Of a stretch of 64,000 bases of DNA, positions 18,205-52,660 are shown piece after piece; the first letter of the stretch is position 1, and each line of letters begins with the position of its first letter. Where the stretch lies: NCBI RefSeq assembly GCF_029504735.1, contig NZ_JAQFIP010000002.1, positions 124,001 to 188,000 of the forward strand, given 5' to 3'. Source of the DNA: Ereboglobus sp. PH5-10. Its GTDB lineage: Bacteria > Verrucomicrobiota > Verrucomicrobiia > Opitutales > Opitutaceae. The position numbers were made by a program, and so were the translations under genes. The notes under the pieces were generated by a model, which was given only the letters and a program-made list of their open reading frames with translations, had not been told where the DNA came from and ran no database searches.

Positions 18205-19097
18205 GCAACGCGCCCGCAGCCAACCCGATTGCGCAAACGACCTCCTCGCCGCATCGCGAGGGGATCGAGGCGGCGCGGCGCTACCGGTTGCCGTTCGGGC
18301 GGCAAAGCTGGCGCGGTTACCAGGGCGCGTGGCAGGGCGCGGGCACGGGAAGCTCGATTGATTTTCAGGATCATCGCGCGTATGCGCCGGGCGACGATCC
18401 GCGCTACATCCACTGGGCGGCGTATGCGCGCACGGGGCAGTTGACGATGAAACTTTATCGCGCGGAGGTGTCGCCGATGGTGGATGTCGTCGTGGATGTG
18501 TCGGAGTCGATGACGTTTGACGCGGCGAAGGCGGCGCGCACGGAGGCGCTGGTGGCGTTTGCGGTGGCGAGCGCCGACGCGGCGGGCGCGCCGGTGCGCG
18601 TGTTTGCCGCGCGCGGACGCGAAACACGCCCCGTGCCCGTGGAAAGCGCGCGCGCGGGCGACTGGCGCGGGCGACTCGCGCTCGGCGGGCGGGCCCTGCC
18701 TTCTGCGCCGTCGCATTTGCCTTGGCGCGCGGGCGCGCTGAAGGTGCTGGTGTGCGACTTGCTTTTTCCGGGAGATCCGTCGCTGTTGTTGTCCGCGATG
18801 TCGGCGGGCGGCGGTTCGGCGGTTGTGTTTGCGCCGGCGCTCGCGACGGAGGCGGAGCCGCCGCTGCGCGGCAATGTGGAGCTGGTCGATTGCGAGAGCG
18901 GGGAAAAGCGCCACCAGCGCATCGACGACGATCTGGCGGCGCGTTATGGCGCGGCCTATGAGCGGCATTTTGAATTGTGGGACGAGTCGGCGCGGCGTTG
19001 CGGCGCGACGCTCGTGCGCGTGCCTTGCGAGGACGCGCTCGTGAATGTGCTTGGCGGCGAGGCGCTCGACCGGGGCGCGGTGGAGGTGACAAGATGA
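18201..19097 (+). CDS. DUF58 domain protein
   Basis: 298 residues. The DUF58 signature SIDFQDHRAYAPGDDPRYIHW is near residues 53-73 in part, followed by a VWA-like fold with an intact metal-site motif D99-V-S101-E-S103. DUF58 proteins are regular partners of MoxR ATPases. The gene starts as an ATGA overlap. Its TGA (19095-19097) also lies in an ATGA, but the ATG there leads into the repeat element described next rather than into the following gene. Confidence 0.93.
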   Translation: MSNAPAANPIAQTTSSPHREGIEAARRYRLPFGRQSWRGYQGAWQGAGTGSSIDFQDHRAYAPGDDPRYIHWAAYARTGQLTMKLYRAEVSPMVDVVVDVSESMTFDAAKAARTEALVAFAVASADAAGAPVRVFAARGRETRPVPVESARAGDWRGRLALGGRALPSAPSHLPWRAGALKVLVCDLLFPGDPSLLLSAMSAGGGSAVVFAPALATEAEPPLRGNVELVDCESGEKRHQRIDDDLAARYGAAYERHFELWDESARRCGATLVRVPCEDALVNVLGGEALDRGAVEVTR

Positions 19098-19431
19098 AAA
19101 ATTCCAAATTTCAAAATCCCAAATTCCAAAGGGGGGCGGGGGGGATATTTCAAAGTTTTGGCCGAAATACGCGTGCGACAAGGAGCGGCTGCGCCCCGCT
19201 GCCGGACGAGGCGAAAGCCTCGCCCGCTTGCCGATTCGCCTCCCGTTTTGTATTCAAAAAACAAATACGCAAAGGGCGCTCGCATTGCTCGCGTCCGGCG
19301 GCGGGACGCGCGCCGCTCCTTGCGCACGCGTCCCTTCGCGCATCACAAAATTTTAAGGTGCCTCCGCGTGGCGAATGCTTGTTTTGGAATTTGGATATTG
19401 GATATTGGAATTTGGAGCCGGAGGCGACCCC
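19098..19431 (+). repeat. Inverted-repeat element inserted between DUF58 and BatA-like genes
   Basis: 334 bases without a convincing gene. The left end is AT-rich and made of ATTCCAAATTTC and CCAAATTCC words; CCAAATTCCAAA at 19119-19130 is matched by its exact complement TTTGGAATTTGG at 19384-19395. The right end repeats GGATATT and GGAATTTGG. The middle is GC-rich, with a G-run near 19131-19143 and a CGAGGC-GAAA-GCCTCG hairpin at 19207-19222. ATGA flanks it on both sides (19094-19097 and 19432-19435); deleting one copy and the element would restore an ATGA stop-start overlap. The word AATTTCAAAATCCC at 19107-19120 recurs at 49603-49616. Confidence 0.65.
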
Positions 19432-45714: not shown

Positions 45715-48135
45715 TTATTTCTTTGGCTGGTTCTTTTTCTCGGATGGGTCGCGCACGAGATTGACGGGGGCGCCGTCCTCGGCGGGCAGCACCTTGAAGG
45801 GGAGGGCGGGAGCGAGCGAGGAGGTCTTTTGGCCGCGGAAGCGTTGCGTGGCCTCGATGATAAACACGCCTTCCTCGCCAACCATCTTTTCGTTCGTGCA
45901 GCGCACCTTGATCACGCCTTCCGTCGCGCCGGCTTCAATGACGGCGACCTCCACAATCATGCCCTTGCCCCCGCGCGAGGCCATCACGCGTATGGGAACC
46001 TTGGCGGCGGATTGCGGCTGCTGTTTTTTCGCGGATTTCTTCGCATTCTTTTTCCCGGCGTTTTTCCCGGCTGCGGCAGATTTGTTTTTCGGAGCCGCCT
46101 TCTTTTTTGCCGTTGCCTTGCCCTTTGTGCCGGCGCCGGATTTTGCCCTTGGCGGTGGCTTTGCGGTGACGGGGGGGCGGTAGTTCGGGTTGCGGATGAT
46201 GCGCACGGGGATTTCGCATTCCTTGCCAAGCGTCAATTCGAGCGGGCCGGCGTCGGCGGGGCGCATGACTTCAACGCGAAAGGGCGAGGCGGGCGTGACC
46301 ACGAGGTAGCCCTGCTCGACGGGCACGGTGTGGTAGTAGAAAAACGCCTGCATTAGCTCCTCGGCGACATTGGCCTTGTGCGTCACGGTCTTGCCGTCGA
46401 TTTCCGCCTCGGCGCGGAAGAGCGGTTTGTAGACGCCCGGTTTCGCGTCGAGCGGCGCGGAGAGGGTGAGGATGGTTTGGTTTTTGCCGGCCTTCACCTC
46501 GGCGCCCGCAAGCTCGAAGCCGGGGGGCAGCCCTTCGGTGCGCAGGCGGATGGGGCCCTTGTAATCGTCGATGCGAATGGACTTGAGTTGCACAACAACA
46601 TTTCCGCCCGCGGGCACGCTGAGGTTGTCGGGCGTGACGCGCAGTTCGAAGTCGGGCTGCTGCGGCGCGATGCTGAGGCGGTAGGCGTATTCGACACCGC
46701 CCTTGCCCTGGGTGTCGCTGAGGTGGACGAAGTAGTCGCCGTCCTGCGTGAATGTGTGCGCGAGGCGCGGGTCGGCATGGTGGGTGATGAGCCCGAAGCG
46801 CTCGTCCTTCACGTCGTCGGCCGTCAGGGTTTTGCCGAGCAGTTTTTGCGGACCAAGAACGATTCGCGCGTCGAGCGGCGAACCGAGGCGGCGCGCCATC
46901 ACGTCGATGACGAGCTTGTCGCCGGTCTTGGCGGAAAAGGTGAACACGTCGATATCGCCGGGTTTGTCGATGCGTCCGTTGATGATGACGGGCGTGGTCA
47001 CGCGCTGGGCCTGGCGCTGGGCGTTGTTCGGCTCGTATTCCGCGACCTCGGGCAGCTCGCTGATTTCGATCGGGCGCGCGTTGGTCTTTTCGCCGGTTTT
47101 TAGGGGGAAGCTGATCTCGGAAACCCCGGGCTGGCGGTCGCTCACATCGCATATCCAGTCTGCCGTTTCGCCGGGCAGGTTTATGCCGCGCGCGGTGAAG
47201 CGGTGGTGCTTGACCCCTTGCGGGGCGCCGAGGGGAAAGATGTCCGTCACGTAGGGCAGCTCGCCTATTTTCATGCGGTAAACAAGGTCGTCGCGTCCAC
47301 GGGAAACGGCGTCCCATATCTCGACGATGTAGTCGCCGTCGGCGGGCGCCTTGAAGAACATGACCGGGTCGGGGTCGAAACGAAAATCATCCGCCTCGGC
47401 CAGCCGGTCGCCCTCGCTGTTGTAGAGCACGATGCGCGGTTGAAACCATCCGGGCACGGCATCGGCGAGATAGGACTTGATGGCGCGGGCCTTGACCTCG
47501 ATGAGAATTTGCTGTCCGGCGCGCGCGCTGAAACGGAAAAAGTCGCGGTCGGCGTTTGTTATCTGGCCGTTGACGACGACGGGGAGCGCGGGCAGTTGCT
47601 GCGCGTCGGCCAGGTGGCCGTTCGGTTCCTTTTCGGAAACCTCGGGCAGCTTGCCGATTTCAAAACGAAAGCGGTTCGACAATCCCGCCGTTGCCATGAC
47701 GCGCAAATCGCGAATGCCGGGCTCGGCGTCGGGCGAGATCGTGAGGCGCACGCGCGCGGTTTGCGCGGCAACCTCGTCGCGTTTTCGGGCCTCCCTGATT
47801 TGCGCCTCGGTGGGCATGTTGACTTCGAGCACCTTGCCGGTGACTCCGCTGCCGCTGACCCAAACCTCGCTCGCGCCCTCAAGCGATCTGCCGCCGAGCG
47901 TGATTTCCATCGTGCGGTTTTGCTGCGCGCCCGCGGGGTAAAGGTATTCAATGTAAGGCGCGGCCACTGCGTGGCCGCAAATTCCAACGATCAAAATCCA
48001 GATTCCAACCAGCCAGCGGAATGTTGGCTGGAGGAATGCTTTTTCAGTTTTGGAATTTGGATGCCGGAATTTGGAATTTCGTTGGAATTTGTTCATTGGA
48101 ATTTGGGATTTACCGAGAGCGCAGCGAGCGGTCAT
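45715..48135 (-). CDS. Exported PPC-domain protein with Lys/Ala-rich segment
   Basis: About 806 residues if started at ATG 48135, which overlaps the DUF1501 stop as ATGA; ATG 48096 is an alternative. The first 60 residues (MTARCALGKSQIP, then MNKFQRNSKFRHPN) and the export signal core LVGIWILIVGICGHAVAA are encoded by the repeat element described separately. The mature protein starts APYIEYLYPAGAQQN and holds three bacterial pre-peptidase C-terminal-type (PPC) domains (QILIEVKARAIKS, DKLVIDVMARRLGSP and others). Near residue 655-710 a segment of mostly Lys and Ala interrupts the last domain. It is the last gene of the DUF1553-DUF1501 operon; function unknown, periplasmic or secreted. Confidence 0.82.
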   Translation of the reverse strand: MTARCALGKSQIPMNKFQRNSKFRHPNSKTEKAFLQPTFRWLVGIWILIVGICGHAVAAPYIEYLYPAGAQQNRTMEITLGGRSLEGASEVWVSGSGVTGKVLEVNMPTEAQIREARKRDEVAAQTARVRLTISPDAEPGIRDLRVMATAGLSNRFRFEIGKLPEVSEKEPNGHLADAQQLPALPVVVNGQITNADRDFFRFSARAGQQILIEVKARAIKSYLADAVPGWFQPRIVLYNSEGDRLAEADDFRFDPDPVMFFKAPADGDYIVEIWDAVSRGRDDLVYRMKIGELPYVTDIFPLGAPQGVKHHRFTARGINLPGETADWICDVSDRQPGVSEISFPLKTGEKTNARPIEISELPEVAEYEPNNAQRQAQRVTTPVIINGRIDKPGDIDVFTFSAKTGDKLVIDVMARRLGSPLDARIVLGPQKLLGKTLTADDVKDERFGLITHHADPRLAHTFTQDGDYFVHLSDTQGKGGVEYAYRLSIAPQQPDFELRVTPDNLSVPAGGNVVVQLKSIRIDDYKGPIRLRTEGLPPGFELAGAEVKAGKNQTILTLSAPLDAKPGVYKPLFRAEAEIDGKTVTHKANVAEELMQAFFYYHTVPVEQGYLVVTPASPFRVEVMRPADAGPLELTLGKECEIPVRIIRNPNYRPPVTAKPPPRAKSGAGTKGKATAKKKAAPKNKSAAAGKNAGKKNAKKSAKKQQPQSAAKVPIRVMASRGGKGMIVEVAVIEAGATEGVIKVRCTNEKMVGEEGVFIIEATQRFRGQKTSSLAPALPFKVLPAEDGAPVNLVRDPSEKKNQPKK
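47960..48131 (-). repeat. Repeat element encoding the start of the PPC protein
   Basis: On the minus strand, four CCAAATTCC-like words lie at about 48040-48110, followed by a stem CCAGCCA/TGGCTGG (plus 48009-48015 and 48025-48031), then GGAATCTGGATTTTGATCG and GGAATTTGC words, and a perfect hairpin GCGGCCAC-TGC-GTGGCCGC at plus 47960-47978. This matches the arrangement of the element at 19098-19431 (CCAAATTCC words, stem, GGAATTTGG words). It begins directly after an ATGA junction and is translated in frame as the N-terminus of the PPC protein. Confidence 0.6.
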
Positions 48136-49547
48136 GTTGGCATGATCTCCTTTAACATTCCCTCGCCGGGCGTGAATTGGGTGGATTTTTTTGCGGGCTG
48201 GGCGGTTTCGTCCTGGCGCGGCGTCACGTAGGCGGCGCAACCGAGGGGGTGGGGGAGGGTGCCGTCGGGATCGATACCGAGGAGCTTGTAGATGCTCGCC
48301 GACAAATCCCACGGCGCGATGGCGCGCTTGGTGACGCGTTCGCCGCGGTTGTCCGTTTCGCCGACGATCTGTCCGCCCCGGAATCCGCCGCCGGCAATCG
48401 CCCACGAAAACGCCGCGCCGTAGTGGTTGCGTCCGCCGTTCCACGGCGGCTCGGTCATGAATCGCGGCGTGCGGCCAAACTCACCGCCGCAGGTGACAAT
48501 CGTTGAGTCGAGCATCCCGCGCTCGGTGAGATCGGTGAGCAGTGCGGAGAATCCGCGGTCGAGTTCGGGCATGAGTTTTTTGTAGCGCTCGGCCTGGTCG
48601 CGGTGCGTGTCCCAGCCGCGCATGTTCACGGTGACGTAGGCGACGCCGTTTTCGACGAGCCGGCGCGCTTGCAGGCACGAGCGGCCAAACTCGGTGTTGC
48701 CGTAGAGTTCGCGGGTCTTGGCGCTTTCCTTGGAAATGTCGAAGGCGTCGCGCGCCTTGCCGAGCACCATTTCGCGAGCCTGGTCGCGGAAATAATCGGC
48801 TTCCTCGAACACGGCTTTTTGCGAATGGCCGAGGGCGTCGAGGTTGTCCAGGAGCGCGGCTCGTTTTTCGAGGTGCGCGCGTTGCTCGGCGCTGATCGGA
48901 TTGGAGAGGTTGCCCGGAATGAACGAACGGTAGCGGGGGCCGAGAAACCCGGTCTCGGAAAAACGCCCGATCGCAACCGGCACCGTCATGTAGGCGGGAA
49001 GCGCGCGCCCCTTGAGCAGGCCGGCCTCCTCCATTTTGTAGGCGATGACCGCGCCCATCGACGGATACACAAGGCCGGACCTGGGATCCGTGCCGGTTTG
49101 CATCATGTAGGTGGCGGTTTCGTGCGCGTTGGTTTTGTGCGAGAGGCCGCGCAGGAGCGTGTATTTGTCGGCGTGTTTCGCGGAGAGCGGCAGCAGTTCG
49201 CCGATCTGGATGCCGTCCACGTTGGTCCGCGCGGTTTTGCGCCACGGGCCGGTGATGTCGGTCGAGGCCTGCGGTTTGGGATCGAAGGTGTCGATATGCG
49301 ACGGGCCGCCAAACAGGAACAGTTGAATGACGGCCTTGGCGCGGGCGTTCGACGCGGGCGCGGAGCGCAGATACGGCGCCATGGCGAGTCCGCCGACGGT
49401 GAGCGCGCCGATGCGCAGAAAGTCGCGCCGGGTAACAAGGTCAAACGCGCGCCGGTAAAGCGCGTCCGAGGCGTGGTCTTCGTGGGCGCAGAGCGGGTCG
49501 TGTGGCGAGGCGGAATCGGGAGAAAAGAGAGGATCGGGAGTGTTCAT
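48132..49547 (-). CDS. DUF1501 domain protein, Tat-exported
   Basis: 471 residues from ATG 49547. Residues 25-55 carry a Tat-like signal (LVTRRDFLRIGALTVGGLAM). The DUF1501 domain shows FLFGGPSHIDTFDPKP, SNPIS, the DTHRDQ segment in VTVNMRGWDTHRDQAERY, and FGRTPRF with CGGEFGRT. This sulfatase-superfamily family is typical of Planctomycetes and Verrucomicrobia and always accompanies DUF1549/DUF1553 genes. The frame continues upstream to 49661 through repeat-derived sequence (MRNSECGFRNARCH), which is probably not translated. Its stop overlaps the next gene. Confidence 0.9.
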   Translation of the reverse strand: MNTPDPLFSPDSASPHDPLCAHEDHASDALYRRAFDLVTRRDFLRIGALTVGGLAMAPYLRSAPASNARAKAVIQLFLFGGPSHIDTFDPKPQASTDITGPWRKTARTNVDGIQIGELLPLSAKHADKYTLLRGLSHKTNAHETATYMMQTGTDPRSGLVYPSMGAVIAYKMEEAGLLKGRALPAYMTVPVAIGRFSETGFLGPRYRSFIPGNLSNPISAEQRAHLEKRAALLDNLDALGHSQKAVFEEADYFRDQAREMVLGKARDAFDISKESAKTRELYGNTEFGRSCLQARRLVENGVAYVTVNMRGWDTHRDQAERYKKLMPELDRGFSALLTDLTERGMLDSTIVTCGGEFGRTPRFMTEPPWNGGRNHYGAAFSWAIAGGGFRGGQIVGETDNRGERVTKRAIAPWDLSASIYKLLGIDPDGTLPHPLGCAAYVTPRQDETAQPAKKSTQFTPGEGMLKEIMPT

Positions 49548-49664
49548 GGAAATGTGGATTTCAGAACGCGGATTTAGGAATTGTGGTGCTTCCGCCCCAC
49601 TGGGGATTTTGAAATTCGCATGGCAGCGCGCATTCCGAAATCCACATTCCGAATTCCGCATTTT
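49548..49664. repeat. Short inverted-repeat element between DUF1553 and DUF1501 genes
   Basis: AATGTGGATTTC at 49551-49562 is matched by GAAATCCACATT at 49637-49648. Between and around them are GGATTT, GAATT and TTCCGAAT words, with CCCCAC-TGGGG at the centre. GGGATTTTGAAATT at 49603-49616 is the exact complement of AATTTCAAAATCCC in the element at 19107-19120. The element fills the whole space between the stop of the DUF1553 gene (49668) and the ATG of the DUF1501 gene. Confidence 0.6.
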
Positions 49665-49667
49665 GTA

Positions 49668-51527
49668 TCAGTGATTGTATAAAAATTCCTTTGTGTTGAT
49701 CAGCGCCCAGACGACATCTTGCGCGGCGGTGTTTTTGGAGGGGGCCTCCTGGAAATAACTGTTGATGATGGAGGTTTCCCCGCCGGTCGGCATGCGCGCG
49801 AGAAACGTGAGGTAACACTCCTCGGCAAACGCGCCCGCGTTCGCCCCGTGCTTTTTGGCGAGCTGCGAAATAACGCCGTCTTTTTTTCGCAGTTTTTTGG
49901 TGAGTGCCTCCGAGTCGAACAGGTAGAGGGCCTGCGCCATCGAGGGTCTGCGGTCGCGCTCGACCTCGTGGGAGGTGTCGCGTCCGGGGCGCCCGAAGGT
50001 TTCGAGAAATCCACTCGTCACGCTCGCGTCGGGATTCGCCACGCTGTGGAAATCGTCCGGCCACATGGCAAACGGCTCGGGGATCCGGCTCTCGAAATAT
50101 TCATACGCGCCGGTGGCCGTGCCGATCGCGTCCGCAAGAACCTCGGCGTCGAGGCGGCGCGGAATGTAATGCGACCAGTTTTGCGAGTCGCGGGCGTTGC
50201 TTTCGTTTGCGGCGCTCGAGCGCTGGTAAGTTTGCGAGGTCACGATGAAGCGGAGCAGGGCGCGCAAATCGAAACCGCTTGAGACCACCTTTTCCGCGAG
50301 CAGATCAAGCAGCTCGGGATTGGCCGGCGGATTGCCGGGGCGCACATCATCGACGGGCATTGTGATGCCGCGCCCGAACAGCGCGCACCAATAACGATTT
50401 GCCACGTGCCGCGCGAAGTAGGGATTTTTCGGCGAGGTCAGCCACTTTACGAGATGCTTTTGCGGATTGTCCGCGCGGCTGAATTTCACCGGCGTGCCAT
50501 CGGGGAGAACGGGGGCGGCGACGGTGTTTTTTTCCGCGCCGATCCTGTGCGGGGCCCACGAGGGGTTGAAATACACAATCTCCTCCTTCCACTCGCCGGT
50601 TTTTTTGTATTTCACATTGGTGAAAAACGCGGCGAGACCCGCGGCCTGCCCGGACTGCCAAGTCTGATACGGATGCTCCTTGCACTCGGCGCAATCGAGG
50701 CGCGCGCCCATGAAAATAAGCGCAAACGCCGACGCGAGCCCCGCGGGCGTGCGACGCTGGGTGGCGCGGTAAAAATTGCACGGTGGATCGCGGAAATTAC
50801 TGCCCGCCGTGGTGAGAAGCGTCCGCGCCATCTCATCGTAGCGCATGTTGCCGGCCATCGCTCCGCGCAGCCAGTTGTGGTAGGCCTGCACGGCGTTGGG
50901 CCAGAGGTTGCTGGGGAACTCGCTTTTCACGCGCAACACGTCGCTCCACTTCATCGCCCAATAATCCGCGTATTCGGGGCGCGAAAAAATCCAGTCGATC
51001 AACTTCTCGCGCTTTTGCGGATCTGTGTCCGCAAGAAACTCGCGCGTTTTTTCGAGCGGGGGAAGCGCGCCCGTCAGGTCGAGACACGCGCGTCGCAGGA
51101 ATTCCGAATCCGAGCAAAGAGGGGAGGGGAGAACGCCGAGCTGGCGCAGATTTTTGTTAACCAGCGTGTCAATCGGATGCGCGTCGGCGGCATCGGCAGT
51201 CGTGAAGAATTTCGCGCCGGAAGGAGGTGTTTGTTTCACCGTCACGAAAACCGTCGCGTAATCATCCCCGGAGCGAAAACTGAGCACGGCGCGCCCCGGC
51301 GAAACCGCCTCCAGCGTGCCATCGCTTTTGATTCGGGCGACGTTGGAATCGTTTGAATGGACGCTCGTGCCGGACGGGATTTTGATGCGCTTCGTTTTGC
51401 CAGGTTCAATGACCACCGACTCGGGACGGATTTTAAGTGCCGCGGCTTGCGCAAAAACGGAGCCGATCAGGCAAAACACAAATGCGCAAAAAGCCGTCCG
51501 CAGCGCGCGGGTGTGTTGCGTTTTCAT
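49668..51527 (-). CDS. Exported DUF1549/DUF1553 protein with Big2-like domain
   Basis: 619 residues from ATG 51527, where the signal peptide begins (MKTQHTRALRTAFCAFVFCL, ending near AQA). A bacterial Ig-like (Big2) domain covers about 30-100 (VVIEPGKTKRIKIPSG, GTLEAVSPGRAVLSF). DUF1549 follows (LDLTGALPPLEKTREFLAD, LDCAECKEHPYQTW with a CxxC-like motif but no CxxCH heme site). DUF1553 ends the protein (RHVANRYWCALFGRGI, TSQTYQRSS). It forms an operon with the DUF1501 and PPC genes. Start overlaps the Rid-like gene's stop as ATGA. Likely periplasmic; function of the family is unproven. Confidence 0.9.
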   Translation of the reverse strand: MKTQHTRALRTAFCAFVFCLIGSVFAQAAALKIRPESVVIEPGKTKRIKIPSGTSVHSNDSNVARIKSDGTLEAVSPGRAVLSFRSGDDYATVFVTVKQTPPSGAKFFTTADAADAHPIDTLVNKNLRQLGVLPSPLCSDSEFLRRACLDLTGALPPLEKTREFLADTDPQKREKLIDWIFSRPEYADYWAMKWSDVLRVKSEFPSNLWPNAVQAYHNWLRGAMAGNMRYDEMARTLLTTAGSNFRDPPCNFYRATQRRTPAGLASAFALIFMGARLDCAECKEHPYQTWQSGQAAGLAAFFTNVKYKKTGEWKEEIVYFNPSWAPHRIGAEKNTVAAPVLPDGTPVKFSRADNPQKHLVKWLTSPKNPYFARHVANRYWCALFGRGITMPVDDVRPGNPPANPELLDLLAEKVVSSGFDLRALLRFIVTSQTYQRSSAANESNARDSQNWSHYIPRRLDAEVLADAIGTATGAYEYFESRIPEPFAMWPDDFHSVANPDASVTSGFLETFGRPGRDTSHEVERDRRPSMAQALYLFDSEALTKKLRKKDGVISQLAKKHGANAGAFAEECYLTFLARMPTGGETSIINSYFQEAPSKNTAAQDVVWALINTKEFLYNH

Positions 51528-52660
51528 GCACGCGCCTCGCTTTCTTTTTTCCACGCGTCCAGTTCGATTTCAAAAAGCAAATCGTCGCGGCAGATGTCGC
51601 AATGCGCAAAAATCGCGGGCAATGGCGGAATCCCGAGCGCCGTTCGGCGCGCCTCCCAGCGGGGCATCCATTCGATGCGGGGGAAATATAAAATCGCGCG
51701 CGCAGTGTCGCGCCAGTCCATGTCGCGCGATTTGAGAATCGCCTCGACCACGCGCAGGCTCAGGTCGATTTGCGCGTCGAGATCGTCGAGATGGATGGTC
51801 TTGCCGCCGGGTTCGATGCTCGCCGTGCCCGACACGAGCAAATGGCGCGAACCGTCCGCGTCCGCGCATTCCACGGCGCGGCTAAACGCGCTCTTGTAAT
51901 CGTAGGCGGCGCACTGGAGCGGCGAAGTCACCGCGCTCACGCGCGGCGCAACGGCGGATTTTGGCGCGACTGCGAGCGCATCGAGTGAAAGCGCCGCGCC
52001 CGCGGCGTTGCTTGCGCCGACTCCCGTGCTCGCGGGCACCAGCGTGCCGAAGATATTGTGCTCCGTGAAAAACGCATTTCGCACGCGATTGAAGTCCGCA
52101 TACCAGTCGAGAATATGGTCGTTGAAAAACCAGGTGCGAACTAGGTTGCCGAGCGTGAAACCCGCGTGTTCGAGCCGCGCCTTCAACAACTGCCACACAT
52201 CCGCGGACTGGGCATCACGCGCCGCGCGAACATCAGGCGGCGTGAGCGCGCCGAGCAGCAGATAACGCGCATCGGGCGTTTCCCATTGCGCGCCGCAAAC
52301 CGCGCCGCGCTCGTCCAGCACGCGGTCAATCTTGATTTCCTTGGGAAGCGCCGTGATGCGCGCGCTCAAGACGCAACCCGCCGGTGTGTCGTGGCGCCCG
52401 AGAAATGCCACCGGGAAGGGCAGGTTCGCGGTCGCGTTGCCAAGCGCGGGATCACAAAACGCATTGCCTTGAATCGGAACGAGCCCGCGAGCGAGCGCCG
52501 CATCGGACAATCGGCCAATCAGCGCGACGATGGACTCGTCGGGCCCGGCATTTGCGCTGATTGAGACCATGCTTCCGCCAAGTGATTTCTCATGAACGAA
52601 GCCGTTGGTGTGGGATTGCGAGGATTCCAAATCAGATGGAACGGGAGTTTGCAGTGACAT
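51524..52660 (-). CDS. Rid/YjgF-like protein, two-domain, chorismatase-like
   Basis: 378 residues. The C-terminal half has RidA/YjgF character (LLVSGTASIEPGGKTIHLDDLDAQIDLSLRVVEAIL in part, then ARAILYFPR), and the central part reads LGNLVRTWFFNDHILDWYADFNRVRNAFF, which recalls FkbO/Hyg5 chorismatases and related two-domain Rid proteins. No signal peptide is visible. A catalytic assignment cannot be made. It is the first gene of the operon with DUF1553, DUF1501 and PPC proteins, whose start overlaps its stop; similar proteins occur beside DUF1501/DUF1553 genes in related bacteria to my knowledge. Confidence 0.7.
   Translation of the reverse strand: MSLQTPVPSDLESSQSHTNGFVHEKSLGGSMVSISANAGPDESIVALIGRLSDAALARGLVPIQGNAFCDPALGNATANLPFPVAFLGRHDTPAGCVLSARITALPKEIKIDRVLDERGAVCGAQWETPDARYLLLGALTPPDVRAARDAQSADVWQLLKARLEHAGFTLGNLVRTWFFNDHILDWYADFNRVRNAFFTEHNIFGTLVPASTGVGASNAAGAALSLDALAVAPKSAVAPRVSAVTSPLQCAAYDYKSAFSRAVECADADGSRHLLVSGTASIEPGGKTIHLDDLDAQIDLSLRVVEAILKSRDMDWRDTARAILYFPRIEWMPRWEARRTALGIPPLPAIFAHCDICRDDLLFEIELDAWKKESEARA

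Follow-up and report, generated by a model that had tools for sequence, protein, structure and literature searches.

Why should the gene of a PPC-domain protein begin inside an inverted repeat? This question was raised by a minus-strand operon in the 64,000-nt stretch of DNA analyzed here (the window), which is part of contig C2 in a 3.58 Mb genome labelled G000. The organism is a gut-type verrucomicrobium whose close relatives are Opitutaceae MAGs, one of them named Ereboglobus. The operon runs from a DUF1549-type gene through a DUF1501 gene to the PPC gene. A first-pass annotation had claimed that a repeat unit was recruited at the DUF1501/PPC junction as coding sequence for an export signal. 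The ATGA overlap and the peptide coordinates on which it relied were borne out (Table 1), and the frame that opens at the ATGA gives MTARCALGKSQIPMNKFQRNSKFRHPNSKTEKAFLQPTFRWLVGIWILIVGICGHAVAAPYIEYL. When the mature part of the PPC protein was compared between G000 and G001, pN was 0.020 and pS was 0.127; the mature protein is under purifying selection, and the gene is intact and maintained. Another inverted repeat, GAAATGTGGATTTC.../...GAAATCCACATTCCGAATTCCGCATTTTG, was observed at 49560-49661 between the DUF1549-type and DUF1501 genes, and the DUF1501 ORF call extends from ATG 49547 into it, up to 49661. Since the Tat-like motif RRDFLRIG of DUF1501 sits downstream of ATG 49547, this repeat is probably not coding sequence of DUF1501, and the start of the longest ORF call inside it is probably wrong.

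Table 1. Features at the PPC junction and one further family copy, in window positions. A slash marks signal-peptide cleavage.
Feature	Position	Strand	Remarks
PPC-domain protein gene (P0001, 806 aa)	45715..48135	-	Pfam PPC, E 2.3e-6
Preferred start of PPC gene	48135	-	ATG; alternative ATG at 48096 (MNKFQRN...)
ATGA stop/start overlap, DUF1501 and PPC genes	48132..48135	-	AAGGAG about 11 nt upstream of ATG
DUF1501 protein gene, operon neighbour upstream of PPC gene	48132..49547	-	Pfam DUF1501, E 1.3e-90; start ATG 49547
DUF1549-type gene, first in operon	49668-51554	-	Named by position and appearance
Left arm of element	48050..48111	-	AAATCCCAAATTCC...CATCCAAATTCC; encodes basic K/N/Q/S-rich n-region KSQIPMNKFQRNSKFRHPNSK
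Central stem-loop of element	48009..48031	-	CCAGCCAACATTCCGCTGGCTGG; stem CCAGC...GCTGG
Right arm of element	47978..48008	-	TTGGAATCTGGATTTTGATCGTTGGAATTTG; encodes hydrophobic core GIWILIVGI
Terminal hairpin of element	47960..47978	-	GCGGCCAC-gca-GTGGCCGC; encodes c-region CGHAVAA; form retained in G003
Signal-peptide h/c region	47962..48012	-	LVGIWILIVGICGHAVA; probable cleavage AVA/APYIEYL at 47962/47961
Another family copy, between two genes	19094..19416	.	MKNSKFQNPKFQ at left end; right arm directly before next ATG

Codons 1-57 of the PPC gene consist of an inverted-repeat element. The left arm carries CCAAATTCC-type words and the right arm GGAATCTGG...GGAATTTG, and the arms are complementary over 13 nt at 100% and over 30 nt at 73%. 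The folding z of the element was -3.96, an equally good fold being obtained in 0 of 200 shuffles. The right arm and the terminal hairpin together encode LVGIWILIVGICGHAVA, which directly precedes the conserved APYIEYLYPAG. The N-terminus shows the layout of a Sec signal, with a basic n-region, a hydrophobic core (best 12-aa hydropathy, 2.9) and small residues at -3/-1 (AVA/A). An n-region that began at the first ATG would span about 40 aa, which is long. Judging from this layout, LVGIWILIVGICGHAVA probably works as an export signal and is cleaved.

Subsequently, the dispersal of the element was examined by searches and by extraction of genome stretches, so that the copy counts given here are lower bounds. 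The 196-nt stretch of the PPC gene gave 56 matches at E <= 10 in the genome that carries it (about 30 with E < 0.2), located in some 20 places; the best dispersed matches reached E 1.5e-11 over 63 nt. No match to the element was obtained in the plasmid collection. Within the window, the motif TTCCAAATTCC (<=1 mismatch) occurred 8 times against 1.3 expected. The similar peptides that the first-pass annotation had read in the element at 19.1 kb were confirmed (KNSKFQNPKFQ from about 19094, and NLDIGYWNLE in the right arm). Other copies occupy the spaces between genes; often they begin at the stop codon of one gene and end shortly ahead of the following gene's start, and REP-like double hairpins are frequent in their central part. 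Many copies in G000 sit immediately upstream of a start codon. Copies were also found in frame within glutaminyl-tRNA synthetase (L015:597-690, G000:C12; EIPNSNTQIPTT) and UvrA (L030:1501-1600, G000:C8; NSKIQNPKFQKNLKSPKSKSQKK). Furthermore, PF01797 (Y1_Tnp/RAYT-like) gave 8 matches above the cut-off in G000 (loci L166-L173), the two best being nearly full length. These results bear on one alternative, namely that no mobile repeat is involved and that the codons of an ordinary signal peptide look repeat-like by chance or because of low complexity. Signal peptides are indeed of low complexity, and a periodicity score described below flagged even mature protein windows. The dispersed matches, the presence of both arms and the stem, and the folding z nevertheless contradict this explanation at the DNA level, as do the double hairpin found at 39 places in G002 and the segments of the G007 PPC and G006/G036 FlgI genes, which match 57-64 places each in their own genomes (see below); we regard it as very improbable.

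The N-terminus was then compared with those of the orthologues, as the first-pass annotation had suggested. In every close orthologue, homology begins only at APYIEYLYPAG, and the alignment from this point onward covers the four close species, G007, G138, G243, G244 and the MAG orthologues L063-L066. The signal/mature boundary is the same in the orthologues of G001, G002, G003, G007, G138, G243, G244, L064 and L065. Outside the genus, no alignable native N-terminus was found upstream of APYIEYLYPAG, and each lineage has its own signal-like segment; the claim that a repeat supplies coding sequence for the signal peptide is supported by this comparison and stands. In G001 (96% identical), the same element forms the N-terminus. 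In G003 (about 70%), a diverged element in the same frame encodes LFGIWTLAFGICGHSVA before the same residue. The ATGA overlap is present in G001 and G002, each with AAGGA/AAGGAG retained upstream, and absent in G003, where translation must begin inside the element. The G002 junction instead carries a double hairpin of REP-like appearance that matches 39 places in G002 and encodes the n-region KARRFSAAGRGEAPPK; the hydrophobic core that follows holds at most remnants of the element arms. Because the tree places G000+G001 beside G002+G003 (support 86/87), the simplest history would be that the element was already at the PPC junction in the genus ancestor. In G007, which belongs to another genus, the PPC signal peptide lies within an inverted repeat of an unrelated kind (CTGAAA.../TTTCAG...), for which G007 yielded 57 matches. 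This one junction has thus been supplied by at least two, and probably three, repeat families. In addition, the signal peptide LLHSALSLLLFSLSLTLT of the G138 orthologue (L073) was seen to be encoded by a CTCAGCC-type tandem stretch. In the G243/G244 pair (L075/L076), the n-region of L075 shows a palindrome, GGGCGCGGACATTCCTGTCCGCG...CGCGGGCAGGAATGCCCGCGCCC, which is degenerate in L076 and is probably another repeat.

It may be asked whether the element is translated at all. If it were a 5' untranslated or intergenic repeat, with the start at the GTG of the c-region or at a later ATG, the open frame would be an annotation artefact, as Di Nocera et al. (PMC3733652) suspected for many N-terminal REPs when warning that these may be untranslated. 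The position of many G000 copies directly upstream of start codons fits this explanation, 7-nt repeats are often open in all three frames, and the GTG (GTG GCC GC), which is conserved in G000, G001 and G003, could start a shorter, non-exported protein. The inner ATG at 48096 is without a Shine-Dalgarno sequence. However, this GTG, the nearest in-frame one downstream, lies inside GHAVAAP, and a start there would leave the protein without any of the export signal, whereas all close orthologues have one that ends at the same residue; the ATGA overlap with its upstream AAGGA/AAGGAG also persists in G001 and G002. An untranslated repeat is, moreover, hard to reconcile with the metallo-hydrolase, FlgI and FlgH described below, in which the repeat replaces the signal peptide and the conserved part follows directly. 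We therefore consider this explanation unlikely and retain translation of the element as the preferred reading.

Between G000 and G001, only 1 of the 171 nt of codons 1-57 differs, and this change is synonymous; the mature part shows 103 changes in about 2250 nt. Nucleic-acid constraint on the hairpin may explain the low synonymous change in the first 57 codons. Over the 17 h/c codons, pN was 0.16 and pS was 0.39 between G000 and G003, and selection probably acts on the hydrophobic core of the signal peptide. A role in RNA or DNA, such as a terminator, an mRNA stabiliser or translational coupling, could keep the repeat in place while coding is tolerated. Such roles have been proposed for REP/BIME elements in other bacteria (PMC3733652), and the conservation of synonymous sites agrees with them, whereas the retention of frame and hydrophobic core in G003 despite diverged arms does not. 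Likewise, the repeat in the FlgI gene of G138 has decayed in its DNA, yet the encoded peptide has become more hydrophobic. Such a role is compatible with recruitment as a signal peptide, but we think it rather doubtful as the reason why the repeat is kept.

A search for other signal peptides that match the element, also suggested by the first-pass annotation, yielded a metallo-hydrolase, G000a, in the same genome. All extracted copies were examined for long ORFs through the right arm. In G000a, a member of a five-gene tandem array, the whole signal peptide including the start codon is encoded by a composite element (MTKSQKIQ...WNFVISKFGIFLGFVILGFGISSAHA, followed after the predicted cleavage site by ADAKVGDQ). 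The neighbouring paralogue G000b, which is 91% identical, has the native MKTFTRSIVALLVFSAAIIPAARA (MKTFTRS...) before the same ADAKVGDQ, and a native signal peptide is also found in the other paralogues of the array and in the G001 and G002 orthologues. The DNA of G000a and G000b is nearly the same on both sides of the join (TACAAATCGCGSTAA and CGCGGCGGACGCCAAGGTTGGCGACCAACTGCC); the element replaces about 100 nt, and no target-site duplication was noticed in a by-eye comparison. The two genes form a before/after pair for the replacement of a native signal peptide. Sec cases in G000 itself are few, 2 of roughly 20-25 element places. ORFs through the arms such as those at L014, L016 and L151 were not counted; they have no recognizable exported protein after the arm or lie in an antisense-looking frame. 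An element arm was also observed in the prepilin leader of a G000 pseudopilin, just before RRRRG/FTLIEV; this copy is one of several in a single pseudopilin/type II secretion-like cluster (L010:826-1605, G000:C1:239.8-240.7 kb). When the hydropathy of 43 scoreable right arms was ranked, the two signal-peptide arms of G000 ranked 1 and 2 and that of G003 ranked 9, which is suggestive but partly circular since the signal-peptide cases had been noticed partly through their hydrophobicity. Among the arms of the G007 family, the one recruited into FlgI was unexceptional (rank 7), indicating that raw copies are already fairly hydrophobic.

Repeat-encoded signal peptides were also found on flagellar proteins. 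In G007, those of FlgI and FlgH are MRHLFLALFSFSVFSFSAFPARA and MHRRIHFLISAFQLFSLSAFSAFSVSA, and the Pfam domains start right after them, at residues 25 and 26, respectively. The G138 FlgI orthologue retains repeat traces in decayed DNA, the peptide having changed from FSFSVFSFSAF to FSFLAFSLLAF. Among 30 FlgI orthologues, two further cases were found: the signal peptide of G006 FlgI (L204) comes from a TGGTCAT-type repeat with 64 matching places in its own genome, and that of G036 FlgI (L205) from a CTTCAGC-type repeat with 57 places and complementary arms around the start codon. Most of the remaining FlgI/FlgH signal peptides gave no such repeat signal. The periodicity score was tried as a way to recognize repeat-derived signal peptides without a genome, but it proved unspecific: besides 7 of 60 FlgI/FlgH signal windows it picked out 12 of 300 mature windows, most of which were glycine-rich codon repeats. 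It was therefore rejected, and only matches to dispersed copies were taken as evidence. An ABC transporter permease of G007 (L127:1259-2158) has a repeat-encoded N-terminal extension before its first membrane helix; it was not counted, as the transmembrane helix that follows the arm has a core of its own. L125, which is without a known domain, is a further candidate.

Taken together, these findings make it highly probable that a REP/BIME-like repeat was captured as the signal peptide of the PPC protein and that the old one was lost. The steps probably followed in this order. A composite, junction-dwelling inverted repeat would have come between the DUF1501 stop and the start of the mature PPC sequence; translation would now start at the overlapping ATGA or at the ATG inside the element, the previous signal peptide being lost. 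The left arm would then have provided the basic n-region, the right arm the hydrophobic h-region and the terminal hairpin the AXA-type c-region. By the genetic code, the left-arm unit AAATTCC reads as cyclic KFQIPNS and the right-arm unit GGAATTT as cyclic GIWNLEF in all three frames, three repeats of a 7-nt unit giving the same cyclic heptapeptide whatever the frame. In a Sec signal, a basic stretch must come before a hydrophobic one. An inverted repeat has the same reading on either strand, so this order is obtained whichever its orientation. The raw GIWNLEF heptad is weakly hydrophobic, and the recruited arms are without its polar N and E; point changes may then have removed these residues, to I/I in G000 and to T/A in G003. 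Many different hydrophobic cores can serve in a signal peptide, and capture therefore needs only an in-frame join and a little tuning. Kaiser et al. 1987 reported, in a title cited in PMC8745461, that many random sequences can stand in for the invertase signal. The native signal peptide would thereafter be redundant and deletable, as in the metallo-hydrolase.

Rickettsia palindromic elements (RPE) are the classic protein-inserted repeats and lie in frame in many unrelated ORFs. The present element resembles them in its in-frame copies in unrelated conserved proteins (glutaminyl-tRNA synthetase and UvrA), but an RPE adds a tolerated peptide whereas the element takes the place of a targeting signal. 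Intragenic REPs are also known, including those that interrupt uvrA in Opitutus terrae (PMC3733652); like these GTAG-type, TnpA-REP/RAYT-associated repeats, the present family has an in-frame copy in uvrA (L030). Like the RAYT-mobilised REP/BIME elements, it consists of short, paired palindromic units that recur many times over the genome, chiefly at gene junctions and in part in frame inside genes; its central double-hairpin modules look REP-like, and G000 has the PF01797 transposase matches. Unlike them, its arms are 7-nt tandem units (AAATTCC/GGAATTT), and it has a probable signal-peptide role at the N-terminus, for which PMC3733652 contains no report. A MITE would be expected to have terminal inverted repeats and to duplicate its target site while leaving the rest of the site intact; the element has terminal inverted arms, but in the filled/empty pair G000a/G000b about 100 nt are replaced, and the by-eye comparison showed no duplication. 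One precedent is the RU-2 repeat that forms residues 1-30 of the predicted signal peptide of Yersinia pestis YPO1552 (SignalP 0.994), the homologues of which have unrelated signal peptides (Delihas 2007, PMC2759123). The PPC case is similar in both respects; YPO1552, however, is a small putative exported Yersinia protein, whereas here several families and genera, the conserved FlgI/FlgH and a before/after paralogue pair are involved. A partial literature search found no paper on recurrent signal-peptide capture or on cases in conserved proteins such as FlgI/FlgH. Since intragenic REP/RPE repeats and YPO1552 were already known, the novelty of the present cases lies in their recurrence.

The origin of new signal peptides goes mostly unobserved; their divergence is rapid, and they can seldom be traced back. 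In the present cases the DNA from which they came can still be recognized, and a before/after pair exists in one genome, which makes the birth of a signal peptide directly testable. Annotators are also warned against removing N-termini of this kind as artefacts of repeats. In four genera, at least four repeat families have served for signal peptides, those of the flagellar P- and L-ring proteins among them. It appears, then, that junk-like repeats can give rise to bacterial signal peptides; on the best reading of the sequences, junction-dwelling inverted repeats are a source on which Opitutaceae have drawn repeatedly for their signal peptides. We slightly favour the broader view that these repeats form a standing supply, with the signal peptides of conserved proteins turning over by repeat capture as well as by point mutation; insertion beside an exported gene would then repeatedly swap its signal peptide, whichever way the repeat is turned and, for the most part, whatever the frame.
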